NCBI GenBank assembly: GCA_040218535.1
Contig: JAVJRG010000005.1
Span: 1,488,001-1,552,000 of the forward strand
DNA: 64,000 nt
Source of the DNA: Lacipirellulaceae bacterium
Lineage (GTDB): Bacteria; Planctomycetota; Planctomycetia; Pirellulales; Lacipirellulaceae
Direction of reading: 5' to 3'
The translations under genes were made by a program, and so were the position numbers. Under the pieces are notes generated by a model. The model worked only from the letters and a program-made list of their open reading frames with translations, did not search any database and was not told the DNA's origin. Positions 22,873 through 37,231 of the stretch are shown here, one piece after another. Within the stretch, counting starts at the first letter, position 1. Each line of letters begins with the position of its first letter.

Positions 22873-24957
22873 ATGGAATGTCCTACGGAAGAAACGCTCC
22901 GCCAACTCTGTCGTGGTCAGCAATCAGAAGAGCATGAAGCGCTCCTCTTCACCCATGTCGATCGCTGTACCAAGTGCCAAACGCTAATCGAGCAACTCGG
23001 TGGTGGGTCTCTCGAAGCGGCCCAATCGCTGCAAGACAAAGTCTCCGACGAAGAGTCCGTGGTTCTTCAAGAGCGCCTTCGCAAGCTTAAGAAAGAGCGG
23101 CCTTCCTCTGCTGGGACGCCGAGCGCGGTACGCTTCGAAGACCTTAGCCCTTGGATCGACGTTGGTGACGAAAGCCTGGGGCGCGTTGACGAGTATGATC
23201 TTGTGAGATGCGTTGGGCGTGGCGGAATGGGAGTTGTGTTTGAAGCTTACGATCGCAAACTGCAACGTTCCGTTGCCTTGAAACTGATGTCGCCCGCATT
23301 GCTAGCCGGTGAATCGAACGGCGAGCGATTCCTACGTGAGGCGCGTACAGCCGCGTCGATTAACCACCCCAACGTCGTCTCGATTCACGCGGTTTCTAAG
23401 ATTCGGGAATTGCCCTACTTGGTCATGGAACTCGTCGATGGCGATTCCCTGCAGCAAAAACTTGAGACTGAGCCACCTCGCGACATCGATGAGATTGGTG
23501 CATTGGCTGCGCAGATCGCTGACGGACTTTCCGCGGCCCACGCCCAAGGGGTTGTCCACCGTGACGTCAAGCCTGCCAACATTCTCATCGAGCGGGGAAC
23601 GGGCCGCGTGAAGCTGACTGATTTCGGACTCGCTCGTCGAAACTCGGATGACATTCTTACGCAGACCGGCAGCCTGCTCGGAACTCCCGAGTACCTTGCT
23701 CCTGAACAGATCGATGGCGGTGAGGTAGACTTTCGGGCAGATTTATTTAGCCTGGGCAGCGTGATCTATCACATGTGCGTGGGTGCACCACCGTACGCGA
23801 GTAACTCGATTGCCTCCACGCTTCATGCCGTTGCGACAACACCGCCCACGCCGATCCGAATCGCTAGGTCTGAAGTTCCCGCTTGGTTGTCTGGGTTAGT
23901 CGAGTGCTTACACGCCAGGAATCCCGCGCAACGACCAGCCGATGCAGCGTCGGTAGCGAGAATGCTCAGAGATCGGCAGAGGCCTGCTGTAGTTCCTGGG
24001 GCAGGAAGGTCGCTTGCGAACGACCGCTCTCGGGCGCTGATTAGCATCGCTGCTATCGCTGGAGCCTTGCTTCTCGGTTTGGTTCTAGTCATGGTCAGTG
24101 GGCGCTCCACTTCCTCTGCTTATAGGGCGGAGAACGCTACTGAGCTAATGGACCATATCGAGCAGCGCGAAGGCGACCTGGAAATCATGCTCGTTTCCAA
24201 CGAAGAATACCGCCTTGAGGCCATCCACCTCGAAGGGCGTTCCATGAAGATTGCTGCTGGGGAAGGTTTCGAGCCAACTTTGATTTTCGGAGGCCAACCC
24301 GACGAGACGGCTTTTCATTGCGAAGAGGGTGAGCTCGTATTGGCGGGCCTGCGCATTGAGACTGATGATGACATCGGCCCAGCTGACGAAGACTCGCTGG
24401 AAGTAATGGAGCCAATTCTGTCTTGCGCCTTTGGTAGTATCACGCTCCAAGATTGCGAGATTGATGCGGGCCATCGCCGCTGTTTAAGCCTGGCCGAGTC
24501 GCATTGCACCATCAGTCAGTGTCGACTCGATTCCGAGGATACGGCATTCTATGTTGAGTCGGCGGACTCGATCCTCCTAGAGCTCGACGAAACGACTATC
24601 CAAAGCCAGATTGGTTTCGAGATTACCGCACCGATGGAAGGTCGACTGCTACTAGACACATGCACTTTTGAGGGCGAGGTCGCATTTGAGCTCATCTACT
24701 CGGATGACAGGTCTCGCCTCGATATAACCTCAAACGATAGCCAATTCGATTGCGGCACCGCCCTTTTCAGTTTATACGACGTTCCTTCTGATGCCTTGAT
24801 GAACAAAGATACCTTTCGTCTAACCCACTTGCCTATCGTGAGCGGAACTGAAAACCAATTCTCAGAATTCTGGATGCACTTATTCAACGACGAAGGCGAG
24901 TTGGTGCGAGCTATATCTACCGAAGAGTGGCAAACAAACAATGATGGAGTGGACTGA
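22873..24957 (+). CDS. Membrane Ser/Thr protein kinase with N-terminal anti-sigma-like zinc finger
   Basis: A 694-residue protein. Residues 1-45 carry His28, Cys32 and Cys35 in a HxxxCxxC arrangement like zinc-binding anti-sigma domains. The PknB-type kinase domain (about 107-370) has the glycine loop GRGGMGVVFEA, Lys137, catalytic HRDVKPANIL (Asp231) and DFG (Asp250). A membrane helix spans about 388-409. The ~285-residue extracytoplasmic part resembles right-handed parallel beta-helix repeats. The model is that external sensing by the beta-helix controls the kinase and the neighbouring ECF factor through the zinc-finger segment. Confidence 0.9.
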   Translation: MECPTEETLRQLCRGQQSEEHEALLFTHVDRCTKCQTLIEQLGGGSLEAAQSLQDKVSDEESVVLQERLRKLKKERPSSAGTPSAVRFEDLSPWIDVGDESLGRVDEYDLVRCVGRGGMGVVFEAYDRKLQRSVALKLMSPALLAGESNGERFLREARTAASINHPNVVSIHAVSKIRELPYLVMELVDGDSLQQKLETEPPRDIDEIGALAAQIADGLSAAHAQGVVHRDVKPANILIERGTGRVKLTDFGLARRNSDDILTQTGSLLGTPEYLAPEQIDGGEVDFRADLFSLGSVIYHMCVGAPPYASNSIASTLHAVATTPPTPIRIARSEVPAWLSGLVECLHARNPAQRPADAASVARMLRDRQRPAVVPGAGRSLANDRSRALISIAAIAGALLLGLVLVMVSGRSTSSAYRAENATELMDHIEQREGDLEIMLVSNEEYRLEAIHLEGRSMKIAAGEGFEPTLIFGGQPDETAFHCEEGELVLAGLRIETDDDIGPADEDSLEVMEPILSCAFGSITLQDCEIDAGHRRCLSLAESHCTISQCRLDSEDTAFYVESADSILLELDETTIQSQIGFEITAPMEGRLLLDTCTFEGEVAFELIYSDDRSRLDITSNDSQFDCGTALFSLYDVPSDALMNKDTFRLTHLPIVSGTENQFSEFWMHLFNDEGELVRAISTEEWQTNNDGVD

Positions 24958-27891: not shown

Positions 27892-28600
27892 TTGCCTAGC
27901 AGCGGTATTGTCAAACTATTTGTGACATTATTGGTTCTACTTGGAGCCACCGTATCCAACCTGACCGCCAGGGAATCTTTAGGAGAGGGATTCCAATCAT
28001 CGCCTAATTCTGCGAAACCGCATTACATGGTGACATTGGATGAACGGATACGTTTCAGCGGAAGGCATTACAGCCGACCTGGAAGCGATGAAGCGTGCAG
28101 GCATTGGGGGCTTTCAAGCTTTCCATATCTAATGGCGAATGTCTGAGGGCCCCGTAACGTATATGGGTAAGGAGTGGCGCAAGCTAATGAGGCACACAAT
28201 TAGCGAGGCCGAACGTATGGGCCCGGAAATGTGCTTCCACAACTGCACCGGCTGGTCCAGTAGCGGAAGGCCATGGATTACTCCTGAAGACTCCATGATG
28301 AAAGTAGTTAGGTCTGAACAACAAGTAGTGGGGGTGGGCGTTGCCGAGGGACTCAAGCTGAAAAGCTTGACAAAAGAGTCACCTCTCCCGCGGAGAATCC
28401 TATGCCTCGGGAATCTCTTGTGGAGAAACGAATTCCAGATATGCCTTTGGCCTCTCGAAGACTAAAAGCCGGCCGCTCGGAGCACGCATTCCTCAACCTG
28501 AAGGATTGGAATCTGCGGCAACTCCCACTACATTACGGGTACATCACACGAGACGCAGGGGTGCATGAAAGAGGGATTCTCACTTCTTTATCTATTCTCG
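27892..28600 (+). pseudogene. Remnant of GH106-like alpha-L-rhamnosidase
   Basis: A signal-peptide-like start (LFVTLLVLLGATVSNLTA) leads into recognisable GH106-type sequence spread over frames. These are WMNGYVSAEGITADLEAMKR and GIGGFQAFHI, ending at a TAA (28130-28132), then in the same frame EGPVTYMGKEWRKLMRH and MCFHNCTGWSSSGRPWITPE. A further shift precedes RIPDMPLASRRL and LRQLPLHYGY. There are at least two frameshifts and one in-frame stop, and the gene is cut off after about 230 codons of a family that normally exceeds 800 residues. It is clearly non-functional. It ends about 50 bases before the ubiquitin-like gene cluster. Confidence 0.8.
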
Positions 28601-28650: not shown

Positions 28651-28974
28651 ATGGGTGATATCAAAATCGAAGTTTGGGACGCAACAGGTAACAAACGCCA
28701 GCTGGTTGAAGTGCCCTCGAATGCCGAGGTCAATCGTTTGATTGCTGTACTGATCGAACGCATGAACTTGCCTCGACATAGTCCCGACGGGCAGGCCATG
28801 AGCTATAAGTTTCATCACAAAAGTTCGGGGAGACAGTTATTGGATACTGAGACCCTCGAGTCTGCGTCGGTTCAGGATGGCGACATCCTTCGGCTGCAAC
28901 CTGAGATCACTGCCGGAGTAGGCAAGTTGGATGCCTCTTCTTCTACCAGCCTGAAGAAGGGCAGGGCGGTGTGA
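28651..28974 (+). CDS. YukD-like ubiquitin-like protein (Ubl)
   Basis: A 107-residue protein with a beta-grasp pattern like YukD/EsaB and ubiquitin: IKIEVWDATG (strand), a helix around VNRLIAVLIERM, SYKFHHKSSGRQLL, then LESASVQDGDILRLQPE (the usual GD-L-L end strand). After the fold come TAGVG (88-91 includes Gly89 and Gly91) and a 16-residue tail to the stop with no C-terminal Gly-Gly. Its stop overlaps the E1 start (GTGA). The context of E1, JAMM peptidase, RING and E2 makes it the probable conjugated modifier. If it is conjugated, the tail would have to be removed, perhaps by the JAMM protein. Confidence 0.82.
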   Translation: MGDIKIEVWDATGNKRQLVEVPSNAEVNRLIAVLIERMNLPRHSPDGQAMSYKFHHKSSGRQLLDTETLESASVQDGDILRLQPEITAGVGKLDASSSTSLKKGRAV

Positions 28975-30194
28975 GCGAAGTCCTCCGATTAGTCGATCTT
29001 AACGCGGACGGTGGCGGCAATCCTGGTGACGGTCGTTTCGCACGTTTTGAATTGATCGGCTGGTGGGACCAGCGGCGGCTGAAGGAGGCGAAAGCCTTAG
29101 TCATTGGCGCGGGAGCTCTGGGTAACGAAATCATCAAGAATCTGGCTCTACTTGGTGTGGGTCAGGTGTTGATTGCCGACCTCGACCAGATTGAGCACTC
29201 CAACCTTTCCCGTTCCGTCCTCTATCGAGCTGAAGATTGCGGTCGCAGCAAGGCGGAAGTTGCTGCTGAGCGTGCCCGCGATATCTATCCTGATATCAGA
29301 ACGCATTCGTTCCACGGGAACATCGTCTACGACCTTGGTCTGGGCCTGTACCGCTGGGCTGACGTGATTCTCGGTGGCCTCGACAATCGCGAAGCGCGCG
29401 TCGCCATTAATCAGTCCGCTGCGCGAACTGGGAAACCTTGGATTGATGGAGCGATAGAAAGGCTCGATGGCGTCGCACGCGTTTTTGATCCAGCTGTGGG
29501 TCCTTGCTACGAATGTACAATGAGTGAGGTCGATTGGAAGATGCTCGAAGCACGTCGCAGTTGTGCATTACTCACTCGCGATGAGATGGAGCAGGGCAAA
29601 GTACCAACCACCCCCACAACCTCTTCAGTCGTCGCTGGCATTCAAGTCCAGGAAGCTGTGAAAATGCTGCACGGACTCGATTCGCTCTCAGGCCAGGGAT
29701 TCGTATTTGATGGCACGAACCACCAGAGCTATACCGTTAGCTACAGTCAGTTGCCGGACTGCCCCAGCCACGATGCTTTCGAGCCCATCGAAGTTCTAGA
29801 CGCTTCGACGGAGATGACAGGGGGAGAGTTTCTCGATCTCATAAGATCGCAGATTGGGCCATCCGCGGTCATCGAAGTGAACCACGATCTGCTCTCGGGA
29901 CTTGAGTGCCCAGAGTGTACCGAGACTGAGCCTTACTATGGTTCCCTGGGAAGAGTAACAGAGTCCATGGGCAAGTGTCCAGGTTGCGGTGCAGCACGGA
30001 CTCCTAAGATTTACCATACGATTGACGAGAATTTCTCCAATCTTGAAGCCACGCTCGGGGAACTGGGCGTGCCTTTGTGGGATGTGATAGGAGGCCGCGA
30101 AGGCGTGAACGCGAAGTACTATGAGTTTGCTGCCGACCGCTCAAGAGTTCTAGGGAGTCTTGCCCAGCCAGTGAATAGGGAGTTCGCCGAATGA
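28971..30194 (+). CDS. E1-like ThiF-family adenylyltransferase with zinc-ribbon C-terminal domain
   Basis: A 407-residue E1-type enzyme that would adenylate the Ubl C-terminus. The Rossmann ATP site is VIGAGALGNE (Gly46-Gly51), followed by IADLDQIEHSNLSRSVLY and GRSKAEVAAERA. Zinc pairs are CYEC (179, 182) and CPEC (313, 316) or CPGC (336, 339). Cys198 in RRSCALLTRDE sits in the crossover-loop position and is a candidate thioester Cys. The C-terminal ~130 residues contain a zinc ribbon inside what could be a UFD-like E2-presenting domain (inference). It starts with GTG 28971 and overlaps both neighbours by four bases. Confidence 0.88.
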   Translation: MSEVLRLVDLNADGGGNPGDGRFARFELIGWWDQRRLKEAKALVIGAGALGNEIIKNLALLGVGQVLIADLDQIEHSNLSRSVLYRAEDCGRSKAEVAAERARDIYPDIRTHSFHGNIVYDLGLGLYRWADVILGGLDNREARVAINQSAARTGKPWIDGAIERLDGVARVFDPAVGPCYECTMSEVDWKMLEARRSCALLTRDEMEQGKVPTTPTTSSVVAGIQVQEAVKMLHGLDSLSGQGFVFDGTNHQSYTVSYSQLPDCPSHDAFEPIEVLDASTEMTGGEFLDLIRSQIGPSAVIEVNHDLLSGLECPECTETEPYYGSLGRVTESMGKCPGCGAARTPKIYHTIDENFSNLEATLGELGVPLWDVIGGREGVNAKYYEFAADRSRVLGSLAQPVNREFAE

Positions 30195-31465
30195 GCACTT
30201 CACAGGACAGAATTGACGTTACTCATCTCGCCCGTGAGCCCCTCGAGGACGCGACATTCCCAGTCGGTACTGAAGCTGATTTCCGGCTTCACATGACCCC
30301 CTCCGTACGAGGCGGAATCGAAGAACATGCCAAGGCCGATACTTCAGTTGAAATTTGTGGCGTTTTGGTTGGCAAGTGGGGCAAGGACGAGAACGGCCCC
30401 TTTGTCTCCGTGACGGACTATATCCGTTGCGATAACGCCGACAGCAAGTTTGCTGAGGTCACCTTCACTCACGACTCTTGGGCGAAAATCAATGCGGAAA
30501 TGGACAAGAAGCCCGACGATTCAAGAATCGTCGGCTGGTATCACTCCCATCCTGATTTCGGGATCTTTCTCTCCGATCGCGACTGTTTCATTCAAGAGAA
30601 TTTCTTCTCAGGACCGGGACAGGTGGCCTTCGTTGTGGATCCCATCAGGGACCTGGAGGGAATGTTTGCCTGGCGTGGCGGGAAACCGACCCCGATGTCA
30701 CACTTTTGGATCGGTGACCAAATCCGCACGGTCAGCGCAAGCGAGCGCAACCCGGAAGCGGAGGCGAAGCAAGCCGCCCCGGCTGCCAGTTACCAACCCG
30801 TAACAGGACAGGCAACGGGCGATTCGTTGTTGTCTATGCCACTCTTGCTTGCCCTTGGCAGTGTAATGTTGATGACCTTGGGATACTTTCTAGGCAACAT
30901 GAAGAGCCGCTGGGAGCAGCAGAAGATTGTCCAAGGGGCGGTCGCCCATTATGGTCTTACGAAGGTGATGAAGTTTGGGCTGAAAGACGACCTGGCTATT
31001 GTCCTTGCGTATATCAATCGAGCAGAAAAACTTCGCCGGGCGATACCGAAGGATCAATCGGATATCGACGAGGAACTCAGAAAGGAAATTGAGAAAGCAG
31101 ATCAGGAAGTGTCTCTTCTCCTAGGAAAGGCATTCGTCGCCCTTGCTTCGATTCAGCAACACTATGGCCTTGATCGCCTGGAACAGTCCGCCATCGAGGA
31201 GATTCTCAAAAAGCAAGACGAACTGAATCGGGTTCCGCCACCGAAAGAGAAAGCCAAACCTAAGGCCAAGCCGAACCCCTCAGCCAATGAGGAAAGGTCA
31301 GCGAAGAATAGCGGCGAACAGAGCAAGCCAGCGTCAGAATCTCAAGAAGATACGAGGCTGGTTCCCGACGATCCGCCAAGCGCACCACAAGCCCCGGTGA
31401 AGCCTAAGAATAACAAACCGCCCGAAGATACTGAGAAACCGAGCACTGAGCCAACTGAAAACTGA
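30191..31465 (+). CDS. Membrane-anchored JAB/MPN (JAMM) metallopeptidase
   Basis: A 424-residue protein with a complete JAMM zinc site: Glu54 in TSVEICGVLVG, then HSHPDFGIFLSDRD giving His118, His120, Ser128 and Asp131 in exact H-x-H-x7-S-x2-D spacing. It is thus predicted to be an active isopeptidase, trimming the Ubl precursor or removing it from targets. A membrane helix lies at about 213-236. The remaining part is helical and ends in a Pro/Lys/Glu-rich low-complexity tail (about 345-424). It begins by overlapping the E1 stop by four bases. Soluble JAMM enzymes are usual in bacterial Ubl systems, so the membrane anchor is notable. Confidence 0.9.
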   Translation: MSTSQDRIDVTHLAREPLEDATFPVGTEADFRLHMTPSVRGGIEEHAKADTSVEICGVLVGKWGKDENGPFVSVTDYIRCDNADSKFAEVTFTHDSWAKINAEMDKKPDDSRIVGWYHSHPDFGIFLSDRDCFIQENFFSGPGQVAFVVDPIRDLEGMFAWRGGKPTPMSHFWIGDQIRTVSASERNPEAEAKQAAPAASYQPVTGQATGDSLLSMPLLLALGSVMLMTLGYFLGNMKSRWEQQKIVQGAVAHYGLTKVMKFGLKDDLAIVLAYINRAEKLRRAIPKDQSDIDEELRKEIEKADQEVSLLLGKAFVALASIQQHYGLDRLEQSAIEEILKKQDELNRVPPPKEKAKPKAKPNPSANEERSAKNSGEQSKPASESQEDTRLVPDDPPSAPQAPVKPKNNKPPEDTEKPSTEPTEN

Positions 31466-31492
31466 ACAATTCAAACTGAAAACTCAAATCTC

Positions 31493-32557
31493 TTGTCCGA
31501 CCCCATCCGAATAAGCACGACCGACCTGCGATCACCTGAGGTTGACGAGTACGTTGAGATGCAACAGTATCTCACGCGTGATTTCGATGCCGGCGCGTCA
31601 CGGCCGTGGGTCATTCGCATGATTTATGCGAACTGGTTCTATCTTTCAATCGCTGCGATGCTGGGCGGACTTGTTGGATGGGGAATTTTGGAACCTTTTT
31701 ATGACGATAACGCGCCAGAAGACAAGCGAACTCTAGTCGGGATACTGGTGTTCCCAACCGTCGCTGCAACGATCGGACTTTTCCTTGGCGCTGCTGAAGG
31801 CATCATGTGTCGCAACTACGTTCGCGCGCTCATCAATGGAGCCGTGGGGCTCGGCGTCGGTTTCCTTGGAGGGTTAATATTCTTAATCCCTACGGGCATT
31901 GTCTTTTTTGCGATGCGCGAGCTCGCCCTCTCGCTATGGGAGAATCCAGCCCCCGGGAAAATGCCAACGGGTCTTGCGTTGATTGTCTTCATGATGGGGC
32001 GGGCGGCAGCATGGGCAATTGTTGCCATCCCCGCAGGGCTGGGCCAAGGCATCGCGATTCGCGAAAAGAAAGTGATTATCAACGGGCTCGTTGGCGGCTT
32101 GCTAGGAGGGCTGATCGGAGGCTTGCTCTTCGATCCTATCAGCATGGTACTCATTACTGACGATGGCCAAGCCACCTATAGCCGTGCTGTCGGTTTCGGC
32201 ACCATTGGGCTTTTTGTCGGCCTCTTTGTTGGTCTCGTCGAGGGCTGGACCAAAACTGCTTGGCTGCTGATGCGCAAAGGGCCGTTGGCTGGAAAACAGT
32301 TTATTATGTTCAAGGATACCACCGTGCTGGGTAGCTCTCCTAAGGCAGACATCTATCTGTTCAAGGACGACGCCATTGAGCCCCAACACGCCCTGATCAT
32401 CAATCGCGGCGGTCGTTTTGAGATCGAAGACTGCAACACCCCCGATGGAACGTATGTAAATGGCATCCCCACGAAACGACACTTGCTTTCCGACGGAGAC
32501 CAGATTGTACTTGGCAAAACCGTCCTGGAATTCTCAGTGAAGGAAAACACCACCTAG
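31493..32557 (+). CDS. Multi-pass membrane protein with C-terminal FHA domain
   Basis: A 354-residue protein starting at TTG 31493, 27 bases after the JAMM gene. About six membrane helices span residues 45-260, many Gly-rich (VGGLLGGLIGGLLF). The C-terminal ~90 residues form an FHA phosphothreonine-binding domain with VLGSSPKADIYL, PQHALIINRGG and NTPDGTYVNGIP. It probably faces the cytoplasm and recruits phosphorylated partners to the membrane, possibly linking Ser/Thr kinase signalling to Ubl conjugation (inference from operon position). No close characterised homologue is known to me. Confidence 0.82.
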   Translation: MSDPIRISTTDLRSPEVDEYVEMQQYLTRDFDAGASRPWVIRMIYANWFYLSIAAMLGGLVGWGILEPFYDDNAPEDKRTLVGILVFPTVAATIGLFLGAAEGIMCRNYVRALINGAVGLGVGFLGGLIFLIPTGIVFFAMRELALSLWENPAPGKMPTGLALIVFMMGRAAAWAIVAIPAGLGQGIAIREKKVIINGLVGGLLGGLIGGLLFDPISMVLITDDGQATYSRAVGFGTIGLFVGLFVGLVEGWTKTAWLLMRKGPLAGKQFIMFKDTTVLGSSPKADIYLFKDDAIEPQHALIINRGGRFEIEDCNTPDGTYVNGIPTKRHLLSDGDQIVLGKTVLEFSVKENTT

Positions 32558-32677
32558 AGCTACAAACAATCTGCAACCCATCTTTAAGATGTTTCGTACT
32601 ACCAGCGTCTTAGCAATCCACAAAAACATTGATATCTCATCCCCCGGTAAACAAGAGTTCTTTTCCTGGAGTCAAAC

Positions 32678-33661
32678 GTGGCTATCGAAGTAACATGTGA
32701 AAGCTGCGCGGCGAAGTTTCGCGCTGGTGATTCTGCCGCCGGTAAGCAGACAAAGTGCCCCAAGTGTGGTGGGGTTATACGAATCCCCGTACCGAACGCC
32801 GAACCGGAGATCTACGAAGCGGAAGAAGCTGACTTTGGTGGTTTTTCTGATGAGGAATTGGCCGGCCCTCCATCTCCACCAGACGTGTCTGGCGATGGCC
32901 GTAAGCCTTGTCCGGCTTGCGGTGAATCGATCATGCAAGAAGCTGTGAAATGCCGTTACTGCGGTGAGATTTTCGATCGCTCGCTCAAGGGAGTCCTCGG
33001 TAACACAGGTCAGGTTGATCCCGAAGCCTGGTCGAAGGTCCGAGGTGGACTGAACACGATTTACATTTGTACGGGGATCATTTTTGGTACCGCCATCCTG
33101 ATGGGAATTCTTGGTGCCCTGACCGCAGCGATGGGCGGTGGTCAAGCTGGGGGTCCTGGGAGAGGCGCTGCGATCCTGATAATCTTGGGAGGGCTTGCGA
33201 TTCTCGGTGCCGCAATTGGAATTCTCGTTGGCTATGTTCGCTGCACGAATGTTCCCCAAGAAAGCGGTGCGAAGGGCTTTGTTACTTGGGCGGTGATTTG
33301 CATGGTTGGCAACATCATCCTCAATATTGCGGGACGAGGGGCAGAATCAGAAGCGATAACAGGTATCGGATCGCTAGTCTCTCTCGTCGGCAATGTCTTG
33401 TTCATTTTGTTTATTCGACGCGCCGCCACTTACCTCAACGACTACGAATTAGCTTCTAGCGCTGGCAAGTTTCTCATCTTCTGCGCGGCATTTATTGCTG
33501 GTTGTTTCGTGCTGGGATTCGCATTTGCTGCTGCAGCTGGTGGGGCGGCAGTCGCGATCGTTGGCCTTGTGTTCGTCGTTTCAGCGATTGTTTTTCTTCT
33601 TTGGTTCCTGCGTTTGATTCGAGGACTCAGGGATACGATCGACCAACGCATCGGATTCTAG
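32678..33661 (+). CDS. Membrane protein with MJ0042-type and second zinc ribbon
   Basis: A 327-residue protein starting at GTG 32678. It has an N-terminal MJ0042-type zinc finger (Cys7, Cys10, Cys27, Cys30) and a second ribbon CPACGESIMQEAVKCRYCG (Cys78, 81, 92, 95). Five or six membrane helices rich in Gly and Ala then run to the end (from about residue 125). No enzymatic motif is visible. The same two zinc modules recur in the next gene, and the MJ0042 finger recurs at the end of the E2, suggesting a shared binding theme within the cluster. A 120-base gap upstream may hold an internal promoter. Confidence 0.78.
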   Translation: MAIEVTCESCAAKFRAGDSAAGKQTKCPKCGGVIRIPVPNAEPEIYEAEEADFGGFSDEELAGPPSPPDVSGDGRKPCPACGESIMQEAVKCRYCGEIFDRSLKGVLGNTGQVDPEAWSKVRGGLNTIYICTGIIFGTAILMGILGALTAAMGGGQAGGPGRGAAILIILGGLAILGAAIGILVGYVRCTNVPQESGAKGFVTWAVICMVGNIILNIAGRGAESEAITGIGSLVSLVGNVLFILFIRRAATYLNDYELASSAGKFLIFCAAFIAGCFVLGFAFAAAAGGAAVAIVGLVFVVSAIVFLLWFLRLIRGLRDTIDQRIGF

Positions 33662-33692
33662 TTCTCGGGTGAGGGGAGTAACAAAGTAAGCA

Positions 33693-34400
33693 TTGTCCAA
33701 TTCCGTCATTACATGTGACTGTGGCGTTCAGCTTCGCGTGCCTGAGGGGCCCGCGGGGCGGGCGCTGCGCTGTCCCAAGTGTAAGGCGGGAATTGCCGTA
33801 TCCGCGGAGGCGACGGTGCTCGAAAGCACCCTTTTGTCCGGTGGTCGGATGACCATGTGCCCGATTTGCCAGACGCAGATTCAGCCCAACGAAAACTGCG
33901 TTACCTGCCCCGGTTGCGATCAAATCCACCATCAGGAGTGCTGGGCGGAAATCGGAGGTTGTGGAACCTACGGCTGCCAGCAGGCCCCCAACCTGGAAAA
34001 GCCTGACGCCACAGATGTGGCAACGACCACGGGATGGGGCGACACGAAGAACTGCCCTGCGTGTGGTGAAGAGATTAAGTCGATCGCTTTACGATGCCGG
34101 TACTGCAATACGGATTTCGACTCCGTTGACCCGATGACAAGTACCGACCTCAGACATCGCGCGAAGTTAGAAAGCAAGATATCAGGGGTCAAAAAAAATA
34201 TAGCTATCTTGTTCGCACTGTCACTGTTGGGCTGCACAGGGCCGTTTGTCGCGATTGGCACGCCAATTTACTTCCTTCCCCGTCGTGGAGAAGCTGCACG
34301 AGCAGGGCCTTTATTCGTTATGATGGGATGGGCGGCCATTGCTATCTCTTGGTTGTTCTCGCTGTTGCTAGTCGCAGGTCTAGTTAGCGGCAGCTTTTAA
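33693..34400 (+). CDS. Prokaryotic RING-finger membrane protein (candidate E3)
   Basis: A 235-residue protein starting at TTG 33693. It has an N-terminal MJ0042-like finger (Cys8, Cys10, Cys27, Cys30), then a RING-type binuclear treble clef of the Prok-RING_1 kind: CPICQTQIQPNENCVTCPGC and HHQECW, ligands Cys56, 59, 72, 75, His79/80, Cys83, 90 and 95. A further zinc ribbon (Cys121, 124, 135, 138) and two membrane helices (about 169-190 and 207-232) follow. Prokaryotic RINGs of this type have been proposed as E3 ligases where they occur with E1, E2, JAB and Ubl genes, exactly this setting. E3 activity itself is inferred. Confidence 0.85.
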   Translation: MSNSVITCDCGVQLRVPEGPAGRALRCPKCKAGIAVSAEATVLESTLLSGGRMTMCPICQTQIQPNENCVTCPGCDQIHHQECWAEIGGCGTYGCQQAPNLEKPDATDVATTTGWGDTKNCPACGEEIKSIALRCRYCNTDFDSVDPMTSTDLRHRAKLESKISGVKKNIAILFALSLLGCTGPFVAIGTPIYFLPRRGEAARAGPLFVMMGWAAIAISWLFSLLLVAGLVSGSF

Positions 34401-34442
34401 ATTGCCCGAAGCCCGCTCACGTTAACGCCTGAGATTTCCGAA

Positions 34443-35729
34443 GTGTCTGCATCCTCACCCCGACTGACGACAGCTGGCGAACGAGAAACTGGGACCGTCT
34501 GCGCCGCTTGCTCCGCGGACATCAACCTCGGCGATGCGGTAGCGCTTTGTGGAGATTGCGGATCGATCCATCACGCATCCTGCTGGAATGAGTCAAATAG
34601 CTGCCGGGCTTATCAGTGCTCGCCCGGGAAGCTGACGGGTAATAATTCGGGCCAAGTACCGATAACTGTCACGCCCCTTGATCTGAGTGAAGCCACTCCG
34701 TTGCCGACGGCTCCCAAGCGCGTCTCAACCCAAGAGCTACTCAAACAACTCGACGAGCAACCCAAGGCGTGGAATCGTCTCGCGATTTGGGCTTTCGGAA
34801 TCGCTCTGGCCGGAATTCCCCTGTTTGGGATTATTACTGGCGTCATCGCGATGATCATCGCTTGTGTTGCCTTAGTTTCGCATTCACAACGCAAGCGAGG
34901 ACTGGGGCTGGCCGTAGCTGCCATGTTGCTTGGGCTAGTTGACGTCGTAGGTTGGTCGTTTGGGCTGGCTTACTTCTATGGCGACAAAGCGGCGCATGTC
35001 TCGCTCGATGAATTGGTAATTGATCCCGAGTCACTCGATGAGCTTCCCCAGCATCTGGCGCGAGCCATGCGTGCCAATGTCTTGATCTCCTCTGATCGTG
35101 GATTTGGTCGGGGTGGATTTGGGTCGGGCGTTATCTTGAAAATTGACGACGGAAAAGCACTCATCGTGACGAATCGCCACGTAATTGATGCCAACTACTC
35201 CGATAGCACTCAGAACGCCCCCGAAGACCTCAGCGATCTGGCCGAGGTGGCCATTACGGTTGTATCACAAACCACGATTCCCGCAGTCGTTGAGTGGGTC
35301 GCGCCCCACGGAGTAGACCTAGCGATCTTGTCCGCTCGTGTGAGCTCTCCTGAAGTGCGAGCTGCGCGATGGCTTGATCATGCAAAACCGAAAATTGGCG
35401 ACATGATCTTTGCGGTAGGTAACCCTCACGGCCTCGGTTGGACGCACTCTGAAGGAAGCGTTTCACAAGTCCGCCGGCAAAGAAAAGGTGCTTTCGACTA
35501 CCGGATCTTGCAATCAACTGCGGCCATCAACCCAGGCAACAGCGGCGGAGGCTTATACAACGAGCAGGGTCAACTTATAGGTATTAATACCATGACTGGC
35601 GACAAAAGGGTCGCCGAAGGTCTCGGGTTCTCAATCGACTTTCAAACCCTCTTAGATCTAGTACCTAGGTGGCTCGCCTTACCCGAACAGGAAGAAAACA
35701 ATGACGTCCTCAGCGATAGCGACTCTTAG
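34443..35729 (+). CDS. RING finger fused through membrane helices to trypsin-like serine protease
   Basis: A 428-residue protein starting at GTG 34443. The RING part has Cys20, 23, 36, 39, His43/44, Cys47, 54 and 59 (CAACSADINLGDAVALCGDC, then HHASCW). Two or three membrane helices follow (about 112-180). An S1/HtrA-like protease domain (about 205-412) has a complete triad: His246 in TNRHVID, Asp292 in VDLAIL and Ser367 in GNSGGG. No PDZ domain is present. With an even number of helices the protease would stay on the same side as the RING, and with three it would be periplasmic, so topology decides whether this couples Ubl tagging directly to proteolysis. Confidence 0.86.
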   Translation: MSASSPRLTTAGERETGTVCAACSADINLGDAVALCGDCGSIHHASCWNESNSCRAYQCSPGKLTGNNSGQVPITVTPLDLSEATPLPTAPKRVSTQELLKQLDEQPKAWNRLAIWAFGIALAGIPLFGIITGVIAMIIACVALVSHSQRKRGLGLAVAAMLLGLVDVVGWSFGLAYFYGDKAAHVSLDELVIDPESLDELPQHLARAMRANVLISSDRGFGRGGFGSGVILKIDDGKALIVTNRHVIDANYSDSTQNAPEDLSDLAEVAITVVSQTTIPAVVEWVAPHGVDLAILSARVSSPEVRAARWLDHAKPKIGDMIFAVGNPHGLGWTHSEGSVSQVRRQRKGAFDYRILQSTAAINPGNSGGGLYNEQGQLIGINTMTGDKRVAEGLGFSIDFQTLLDLVPRWLALPEQEENNDVLSDSDS

Positions 35730-35790
35730 GAGCCAAACTTCTTTGAACTCGTGATGCCGCCACTTAGATTAAGCCCTTGTCCATATACAA

Positions 35791-36477
35791 ATGTCCAACG
35801 TTCGCCTCCGTCGCCTAACTGCTGATCATGAAAAGCTGCGTGAGTATGTGCGGCTGCACCCACGAGTCCGCTTGATTCAAGCAGACGGCACACCTCCAGA
35901 ACGGTATCAGCTTGAGTATCGCATTAAGAGCGTGCGGATGCGTGATGGTGAATTACAAGAGACACTCAGCCACATGGTCGAGATTCACCTTCCGCGCAAC
36001 TACCCAAGAACTCCGCCACAGTGTCGGATGCTCTCTCCAGTGTTTCACCCCAACATAGCCCCTCATGCCATCTGTGTGGGGGATCATTGGGGTTCTGGAG
36101 AACCACTTCAATCGATCGTGACGCGAATTGGCGAAATGATCGCCTACCAAAGTTACAACGTGAAAAGCCCGCTCAACGGTGAAGCGGCTCGCTGGGTTGA
36201 GGATAACAAAGATCGCCTCCCACTTGATCCAGTCAGCCTCTTACCTGAAGAGGGGACATCGGAAGTAACGGCAGCGAGCAAACAATCAGACGCCCCACCC
36301 ACGCCAGCCGCTAAGACATTCCCATCAGAGCCACCAGGAGATGTCGAAGCGACCCCGAAGCTTCTATCAATTGCCTGCCCTCATTGCCAAGCTTCGTATC
36401 GAGTGAAGGAGAAGTTTCATGGCCGCAAATTGCGTTGTAAGAAATGCCGCGAAGTATTTACCGTCGAAGCTGAATGA
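35791..36477 (+). CDS. E2 ubiquitin-conjugating-enzyme-like protein with C-terminal MJ0042 zinc finger
   Basis: A 228-residue protein. The UBC fold covers about residues 1-145, with YRIKSVRM-type strands, the LPRNYPRTPPQCRML turn and HPNI (86-89) followed by the catalytic Cys95 in AICVGDHW. This His-Pro-Asn plus Cys layout is like eukaryotic E2s, and the protein should carry the Ubl as a thioester. A Pro/Ala-rich linker (about 155-190) leads to an MJ0042-type zinc finger (Cys196, 199, 216, 219). It closes the cluster, 61 bases after the RING-protease gene. Planctomycete E2-like genes have been predicted before; the added zinc finger is less common. Confidence 0.9.
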   Translation: MSNVRLRRLTADHEKLREYVRLHPRVRLIQADGTPPERYQLEYRIKSVRMRDGELQETLSHMVEIHLPRNYPRTPPQCRMLSPVFHPNIAPHAICVGDHWGSGEPLQSIVTRIGEMIAYQSYNVKSPLNGEAARWVEDNKDRLPLDPVSLLPEEGTSEVTAASKQSDAPPTPAAKTFPSEPPGDVEATPKLLSIACPHCQASYRVKEKFHGRKLRCKKCREVFTVEAE

Positions 36478-36749: not shown

Positions 36750-37231
36750 GGTCAGGGTGCCACCAGCATTTGAGAAGGATAGAACGGAAGGACGCCAGAA
36801 CGAGGATTTATTGATCCTAGCATGAACTCCTTCTCCCACTATTCCTTCGGGGCCGTCTTTCAGTGGATGGTCGAGAACATCGGCGGAATTCGCAGGCGTT
36901 TGCCAGGTCATCACCATTTCCCATCACCCCACAAGTCGGCGGCTATCTTACTTGGGCCAATACTTCCTGCAAAAGTATCTTTGGTTTAATCGAATCGCGG
37001 TGGCGAAAACCTAATGGTCGTTATCAACTCAAGCTGACCGTCCCATGCACCACCGCTAGAGTCCATAGTCCCACAACCGATCAAGCAAAGATTCGCGAAA
37101 GTGGACAGCCGATTACCTCAGTCGAAGGGGTGCACGAAATCTGTACATAGGGCAATGAAACGATCTTGCTTGTTGGCTCGGGCGTATATGAGTTCGAGGT
37201 TGAACTTTCCAAGCCGAGCAAAGACAAGTGA
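36750..37231 (+). pseudogene. C-terminal remnant of GH78-like alpha-L-rhamnosidase
   Basis: Fragments of the GH78 C-terminus are spread over two frames. First come ATSI, a TGA, EG, a TAG and NG, then after a shift TPERGFIDPSMNSFSHYSFG and AVFQWMVENIGGI. A further shift is followed by ITPQVGGYLTWANTSCKSIF and RWRKPNGRYQLKLTVP, then a TAG at 37148-37150 and the tail ILLVGSGVYEFEVEL to TGA 37229-37231. Family members typically end in just this way (NHYAFGAV..., TPQVGG-LTWA, GSG-Y-F). Multiple lesions make it non-functional, and about 80% of the gene is missing upstream, where the Ubl cluster now sits. Confidence 0.8.

Follow-up and report, generated by a model that had tools for sequence, protein, structure and literature searches.

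What would a bacterium need to run a ubiquitin-like conjugation cascade at its membrane, and could one short run of genes supply it? The question is raised by an eight-gene run at positions 28651-36477 of a 64,000-nucleotide stretch of DNA from a Lacipirellulaceae bacterium (GCA_040218535.1, contig JAVJRG010000005.1, positions 1,488,001 to 1,552,000), the whole of which is called here the window. Judging from the genes and their relatives, we regard it as very probable that this run encodes a self-contained, membrane-tethered conjugation system for a ubiquitin-like modifier (Ubl), that is, the cascade itself. What the cascade would be used for can be answered only far more tentatively.

Eight genes and their predicted active sites

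All eight open reading frames (ORFs) are intact and lie on the forward strand. The first encodes the Ubl, a YukD-like precursor of 107 residues (28651-28974), and is followed by a single-domain ThiF/UBA-type activating enzyme (E1) of 407 residues (28971-30194), a JAMM/Rpn11-like peptidase with one transmembrane segment and a long C-terminal tail (30191-31465), a polytopic membrane protein with a TTG start and a C-terminal FHA fold (TM-FHA, 31493-32557) and a zinc-ribbon membrane protein (32678-33661). Next come a membrane RING protein (33693-34400), with Prok-RING_1 at residues 54-96 and a zinc ribbon C-terminal to it, and a protein that joins Prok-RING_1 (residues 16-61), a DUF4190-like transmembrane region and a trypsin-like protease (RING-HtrA, 34443-35729). 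The run closes with a conjugating enzyme (E2, 35791-36477) that carries a UBC domain, the HPN motif at residues 86-88, Cys95 and a C-terminal zinc ribbon (Zn_ribbon_4, 2.5e-8). By their coordinates the genes are spaced by two 4-nt overlaps and then by gaps of 27, 120, 31, 42 and 61 nt. Pfam recognizes YukD (5e-9), ThiF (4e-54), JAB (9e-12), FHA (5e-13), Trypsin_2 (2e-23) and UQ_con (5e-11), together with Prok-RING_1 in both the RING protein (5.8e-8) and RING-HtrA (6e-8); in the fifth protein, whose orthologues occupy the same operon position, zinc-ribbon matches stay below threshold. Hydrophobicity places transmembrane segments in five products, namely JAMM (1), TM-FHA (6), the zinc-ribbon protein (6), the RING protein (2) and RING-HtrA (2).

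The original prediction, made from the sequence letters and their ORF translations, had described eight co-directional genes with overlaps or short gaps, four or five of them for membrane proteins, and the coordinates and domain matches bear this out, with five as the number. It had also held that the key residues are intact, which is so for E1 Cys198, for the HPN motif and Cys95 of E2 and for the JAMM residues, as it is for the HtrA triad, and that activation, conjugation, ligation and removal each have a candidate in the cluster, which the domains and the conserved linkage described below support, ligation at the level of a candidate only. A decayed remnant was set aside because the active sites are intact.

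The Ubl has a single YukD stretch (PF08817), and its profile weakly matches four ubiquitin-like chains of the PDB (E 0.015-0.04), which we take to be Caldiarchaeum proteins. The predicted mature form comprises residues 1-89 (28651-28917) and ends in PEITAG, with an 18-residue tail beyond; there is no di-glycine, the junction reading ITAG-V. Of the 74 Ubls of nonredundant loci (L220, a copy of L128, was left out), 72 close the domain with Ala-Gly. In 16 of these the protein stops directly, and in 56 it continues into a tail, 1 to 30 or more residues long; the position after Ala-Gly takes 13 states, stop included. The two exceptions are L105, which ends in Ala-Ala, and L195 of a cyanobacterial plasmid, which ends in Gly-Gly plus one residue. 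An Ala-Gly followed by a stop or a variable tail is the pattern expected of a precursor that would be matured to a C-terminal glycine. The YukD fold is also shared with type VII-like (ESX) secretion, of whose apparatus the locus might be a part. Yet neither WXG100 nor FtsK/EccC is matched in the eight operon proteins and the nine flanking proteins identified, and Bacillus YukD, in the relevant passage of Iyer 2006 (PMC1779556), is reported not to be conjugated; we consider membership of such an apparatus extremely improbable.

In E1, the predicted catalytic Cys198 lies in the crossover loop, beside a predicted zinc site (C179/C182/C264/H267), and is kept in 64 of 66 E1s, the remaining two being truncated there. 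The structural model (predicted local distance difference test, pLDDT, 89.5) matches MoeB, ThiF, UBA3 and UBA5 over about residues 18-270 (Z 26-31) and a SUMO E1 (9dqb_B) over residues 23-389 (Z 28.1, root-mean-square deviation (rmsd) 3.5, 305 residues aligned), these being the matches ranked by Foldseek (VIA-align + Foldseek). The C-terminal part carries a second CxxC pair (C313/C316/C336/C339) in what appears to be a UFD-like domain, and on this model residues 270-389 would be the E2-recruiting domain. The ThiF fold and the scores against ThiF and MoeB models, which fall below the cut-offs, are what would favour a sulfur carrier or cofactor system of the ThiS/MoaD type. Such a system would not account for a full E2 with HPN and Cys, for RING proteins and membrane parts, or for a Ubl end that is Ala-Gly and not Gly-Gly in 72 of 74; nor is there a sulfur-metabolism gene among the nine flanking proteins identified, and we find this explanation very unlikely.

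The JAMM residues are E54, H118, H120, S128 and D131, ahead of a transmembrane segment at 213-231; H120 is kept in 67 of 67 proteins and S128 and D131 in 64, with gaps in three divergent ones. Its nearest PDB relative by sequence is the N11-like protein 6fju (2.5e-10), presumably also from Caldiarchaeum. Across the E2s, the His of HPN is kept in 113 of 113, Pro and Asn in 112 and the catalytic Cys in 107, and the E2 model (residues 1-158, pLDDT 92.8) finds UbcH5c, Rad6 and Ubc13-type E2s in the PDB. The protease triad of RING-HtrA (His246, Asp292, Ser367; no PDZ match) is likewise conserved (His and Asp each 56/57, Ser 57/57), and in 44 of the 57 HtrA frames the RING is part of the same frame.

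The FHA gene had been thought to set the system apart. A TM-FHA protein is indeed present, but the phosphopeptide-contact positions Arg, Ser and Asn, which we take from Rad53 FHA1, are kept in 0, 2 and 1 of 53 proteins (His in 53 of 53). Since almost every orthologue lacks the contact residues, a phospho-reader role is doubtful and phospho-signalling through TM-FHA was rejected as the default reading; the protein is, by its residues, probably a non-phospho scaffold. Phospho-recognition may enter by way of another FHA that shares its frame with a RING-type domain at three loci (L089:8155-9540, L186:8559-9839 and L194:5337-6761; Pfam 1e-17 to 3e-15), where GR and SRxH motifs are found in all three and NG in two. 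These frames also hold a zinc-ribbon-like stretch, and their RING was found by a family model, Pfam Prok-RING_1 falling below the cut-off in two (0.007 and 7e-5) and being unlisted in L186.

Linkage, distribution and coupled loss

If the eight genes form one system, their relatives should travel together. Loci were recruited by E2 alone and their operon genes annotated with family models; from the 129 loci annotated, 17 with an E2 identical to that of another locus were removed, and of the 112 left, 62 had 7 kb or more upstream of E2 and entered the linkage count (50 fell below that). Ubl, E1 and JAMM stand beside E2 in 51 of the 62, and these 51 core loci carry FHA in 39 cases, RING in 45, HtrA in 28 and all three in 27; the models behind these counts had been rebuilt on first-round matches in 49 of the same loci, and the counts lean towards the family. 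Across the 112 loci, 413 of 414 family ORFs are on the E2 strand. The neighbourhood comparison that the original prediction had called for thus found its homologues linked and not scattered, and the recurrence of the same genes in the same direction beside E2, across genera and phyla, argues that the arrangement is more than chance.

The commonest order, judged by eye, is that of the window (Ubl-E1-JAMM-FHA-(zinc ribbon)-RING-RING/HtrA-E2). Shorter types are Ubl-E1-JAMM-FHA-RING-E2 (for example L088, L091 and L180), Ubl-E2-E1-JAMM-RING (L039) and E1-Ubl-E2-JAMM (for example L092 and L098). Between Ubl and E1, five loci of the bacterial family (L032, L034-L037) show a zinc-ribbon-like match, which in L034 is a DUF4190/zinc-ribbon gene, and one gene cluster lies near the operon (median 4 bases) in 17 of 70 loci, its representative being a DUF2752 membrane protein gene directly after E2 (L034:3702-4172); neither gene was seen in the window's ORF list.

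Relatives by E2 profile occur in 9 of the 43 genomes of the family and in 39 or more of 392 genomes sampled from the phylum, a lower bound since at most nine candidates per genome were scored. In a named genome collection, the best 80 of 124 stretches matching the E2 profile come, among others, from Planctomycetota, Riflebacteria, Sumerlaeota, Myxococcales, Kofleriaceae, Acidobacteria, Holophagaceae, Victivallales, Kiritimatiellae, Prosthecobacter, Bacteroidales, Fibrobacter, Aminicenantes and Bacillota, although many of the E2-bearing records are metagenome-assembled genomes and single taxon assignments may be wrong. E2 domains are identical between L036 and L117 and between L038 and L139, family genomes here matching the isolates Lacipirellula limnantheis and Aeoliella straminimaris; in the former the whole run lies in one stretch and in the latter on two contigs. 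The window E2 has no plasmid match, and the window E1 finds on plasmids only relatives below 60% identity and below 80% coverage. One of these is in a cyanobacterial cluster: on a plasmid of Crinalium epipsammum (L195, 8995-12472), E1, an unknown gene, a Ubl ending in GGY (called on a weak match, 2e-4), E2 and JAB adjoin a conjugation gene.

A further line of evidence comes from genomes in which the set is broken. In the 43 family genomes, Ubl is found in 9 and E2 in 9, with 8 shared; the two discordant genomes are 77% and 83% complete, and there is no discordance among the 28 high-quality ones. In three genomes from a single genus (G082, G194, G250) a Cys-less E2 stands alone, with no other core gene in the more than 9 kb to either side, and both Ubl and family E1 are missing (best E1 E 2e-37, against 2e-166 or better in seven others). 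In six genomes an intact E2 stands away from E1, with 3-10 kb upstream free of family genes in four and at a contig end in two, and Ubl and family E1 are kept in all six. By gene content, then, loss of the E2 cysteine, of the Ubl and of the family E1 is coupled. Moreover, gene distances between six families correlate (Mantel r 0.62-0.93, a value that 0 of 999 permutations reach; L101 and L109 were left out). In G454 and G456 the run from Ubl to RING-HtrA stands without E2.

Cys-less E2 relatives, resembling ubiquitin E2 variant (UEV) pseudo-E2s, are found at L087, L094, L096, L188 and L110 and as the second E2 of L101, which adjoins an intact one. G458 combines a complete operon with a separate Cys-less E2 at the end of a contig. 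In G095 a divergent Cys-less E2 lies on a 4.6-kb contig, too short for it to be called lone, with no Ubl match; the Ubl profile (A1) was built on close relatives, and Ubl absence beside such a divergent E2 is weak evidence.

In the host genome of the window (5.36 Mb, 95.8% complete), E2 and Ubl are each single-copy, a second match to the E2 profile being to the zinc ribbon only. Scans for promoters and terminators at the locus gave no clear excess over shuffles. By Pfam, the nine flanking proteins identified are of carbohydrate and planctomycete-cytochrome type, together with a Ser/Thr protein kinase encoded on the operon strand at 22873-24957, two genes upstream of the operon; no kinase was noticed by eye in the recurrent flanking clusters of other operon copies, where no kinase-directed search was made. 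Truncated alpha-L-rhamnosidase pieces lie on both sides, upstream a GH106 N-part (28139-28462, PF17132 2e-16) and downstream a bacterial rhamnosidase C-domain (36863-37147, PF17390 3e-11), and since they belong to different Pfam families they are probably not one split gene. An insertion boundary could not be drawn, as the right-flank esterase has no close orthologue (best E 1e-8) in G001, a genome of the same genus looked at for an empty site.

Relation to known conjugation and defence systems

Is such an operon new? Burroughs, Iyer and Aravind are said to have predicted, in a 2011 article (Mol Biosyst 7:2261), bacterial operons of E1, E2, JAB, RING and Ubl, Planctomycetes included, and to have proposed the conjugation of YukD-like Ubls. 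The relevant part of a 2014 review (PMC4197634), citing Burroughs 2011, describes related uncharacterised operons in Actinobacteria, Planctomycetes and Acidobacteria that are sporadic and often missing in close relatives. The window operon encodes E1, E2, JAB, RING and Ubl together and comes from a planctomycete, as in the class described there, and its patchy occurrence agrees with the sporadic distribution that PMC4197634 states; the original prediction was thus right that the class had been foreseen. Operons of E1, E2, JAB and Ubl in bacteria were also predicted in the passages concerned of Iyer 2006 (PMC1779556), while Grau-Bove 2015 (PMC4327156), as far as its text on this point goes, reports no complete toolkit in the bacterial genomes examined there, and PMC10936438 is silent on bacterial operons in the passages concerned. 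In the literature, where subscription journals were thinly covered, we came upon no experiments on a planctomycete operon of this kind. The class was predicted before; its extended form, with membrane proteins and a protease, seems experimentally new.

A reconstituted parallel comes from archaea. According to the sections concerned of PMC5654768, the Caldiarchaeum subterraneum cascade was reconstituted in vitro, and complete operons in some bacteria are mentioned. Its operon (ubiquitin, E1, E2, the RING protein srfp and Rpn11) has five functions in common with that of the window, and both have a tailed pro-modifier cut by JAMM (predicted in our case), a ubiquitin-like domain at the C-terminus of E1 and a RING (PMC5654768). 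They differ in that the Caldiarchaeum modifier ends in di-glycine, whereas here the end is AG in 72, AA in 1 and GG in 1 of 74, and in that membrane, FHA and HtrA partners go unmentioned in those sections (PMC5654768).

UFM1-UBA5 shares with the window a single-glycine end and an E1 whose catalytic Cys lies in the adenylation domain. The window differs from it in its canonical HPN E2, and UBA5 is no closer in fold to our E1 than MoeB is.

Among bacterial systems, BilABCD also has Ubl, E1, E2 and JAB in one operon, but in the parts of PMC11354881 concerned, BilA is described with two Ubl domains, BilD with two adenylation domains and BilB with a CEHH motif. The window Ubl has one domain, the E1 one ThiF domain (residues 25-264), and the E2 has HPN and no CEHH, its residues after Cys95 reading VGDHWGSGEPLQS, without Glu at +6 and without His at +8 or +13. 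The PADLOC match of E1 to BilD (8e-8) is limited to residues 41-148. In type II of the cyclic-oligonucleotide-based antiphage signalling system (CBASS), Cap2/Cap3 comprise ThiF, E2 and JAB folds with E2 and E1 fused. The Iyer 6a-6c operons, in the relevant part of PMC1779556, likewise have ThiF, E2 and JAB folds and an E2-E1 fusion. Unlike both, the window encodes E1 and E2 separately and has its own Ubl and RINGs. The differences from Bil and CBASS claimed at the outset therefore stand in these respects, as they do for the membrane, FHA and RING features; the cluster itself is not unique, whole or shortened versions being found in many bacteria. Bub is another bacterial Ubl pathway that has been studied biochemically, and part of the Bub operons, by the account in the passages concerned of PMC13373217, adjoin CapW, CapH+CapP or CapK+CapS regulators.

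These likenesses give weight to anti-phage defence of the Bil or CBASS Cap2/3 kind, since related E1-E2-JAB modules serve defence, and the patchy presence in the family (9 of 43 genomes) would fit it too. The surroundings do not. PADLOC gave only cross-matches on the operon proteins (E1-E2, BilD, JAB, protease-type and a few weak others), and among the 10 flanking proteins it matched only the Ser/Thr kinase, to kinase models; no CD-NTase model is among the matches listed for the eight operon proteins and the 10 proteins around them. Only one of the 22 largest flanking clusters (70 loci), that represented by DUF2752, occurs in more than four loci, the rest being judged by eye. A search of 50,697 phage records with the window E2 found no match, nor did two pattern scans bring up a relative among viral contigs. 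Defence is, in our opinion, an improbable role for this operon, and it is the flanking gene types, with PADLOC matching only the kinase, that lead us to favour envelope protein control over it.

Proposed mechanism and role

How would the cascade proceed? The membrane JAMM would cut the Ubl precursor after Ala88-Gly89, and the ThiF-type E1 would adenylate Gly89 and hold the Ubl on Cys198, from where the UFD-like C-terminal domain of E1 would hand it to Cys95 of E2. The membrane RING proteins may then place the charged E2 at the membrane and transfer the Ubl to lysines of proteins in or associated with the membrane, from which JAMM could take it off again, while RING-HtrA would couple the tag to proteolysis or sense envelope stress. 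The direct basis of this model, at the level of sequence, is the intact active sites, the conserved Ala-Gly end, the conserved linkage and order and the coupled loss; the order of the reactions, the E3 (ligase) activity, the substrates and the role in envelope control are what we infer from it.

Several observations weigh against this picture. In 31 of the 56 tailed Ubls, Ala-Gly is itself followed by Ala or Gly, and with a Gly next, as in the 12 of 72 that read AGG, the cut could fall one residue later. Basic residues follow the single transmembrane segment of JAMM, which by the positive-inside rule would put the JAMM domain outside, the opposite of its expected cytosolic role. The E2 fold matches are moderate (template-modelling score 0.57-0.67 by query length, most rmsd 4-6), and by alignment the spacing from motif to Cys in the window's subgroup falls short of that in eukaryotic E2s by one residue. 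Both RINGs proposed as ligation candidates are present by Pfam, but with the ligand order C-x2-C ... C-x2-C ... H-x2-C ... C-x(2-5)-C; 127 of 144 RING domains fit one eight-ligand pattern that is C4HC3-like, nearer to that order than to the canonical C3HC4, and the E3 activity of these proteins is a prediction from the domain. Eleven of the 62 loci lack the full core, of which L087, L094, L096, L120, L124 and L129 are accounted for, the others being L078, L086, L109, L147 and L173. Finally, the Mantel correlations are uncontrolled for the species tree.

The topology of RING-HtrA is not uniform either, which also counts against the model: 13 of the 57 HtrA frames have no RING in frame (two of them contig fragments), and a single hydrophobic run is seen in 15 of the 44 RING-HtrA proteins, two runs in 19 and three in 10. 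In the window, the first transmembrane segment sits in an uncharged run of 34 residues that might cross twice. Among the 29 proteins with at least two runs, 22 have a positive loop behind the first run and 23 a positive N-flank, while the C-flank charge is split, 14 negative versus 13 positive. These charges mildly favour a RING inside and, in proteins whose first run (median 33) spans the membrane twice, a protease outside.

With these reservations, envelope protein control or proteolysis is the role towards which we lean, tentatively and with a little less than balanced confidence. Regulatory conjugation would give the same genes another purpose, namely a reversible Ubl marking of membrane proteins in which RING-HtrA serves as a regulatory protease or a sensor. 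All 51 core loci have JAMM by definition, against 28 of 51 for HtrA, and shorter operons without the protease exist, which suits this purpose; the shared frame of RING and HtrA suggests, on the other side, a direct link between tag and proteolysis, and we hold regulation to be possible but rather unlikely. A more specific form of the envelope role is no less doubtful: membrane-protein degradation with a single-glycine Ubl, in which RING-HtrA would recognise or tag its substrate and destroy it without a proteasome, the non-phospho FHA protein acting as scaffold. The host genome has one PF00227 match, which adjoins an ORF read as HslU, and, at 95.8% completeness, no PafA-type ligase (PF03136; the Corynebacterium control was positive). 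Pup/UBact was set aside because this ligase is absent from the genome.

If the envelope-associated cascade is real, it would represent a complete and reversible bacterial tagging cascade at the membrane, apparently outside defence, in a single 8-kb cassette, and could reveal how proteins of the bacterial envelope are marked. The operons, isolates included, would then offer a tractable set for finding out what bacterial Ubl tagging does beyond immunity, whether an E3-protease fusion can replace a proteasome, and what relation bacterial E1-E2-RING systems bear to those of archaea and eukaryotes.

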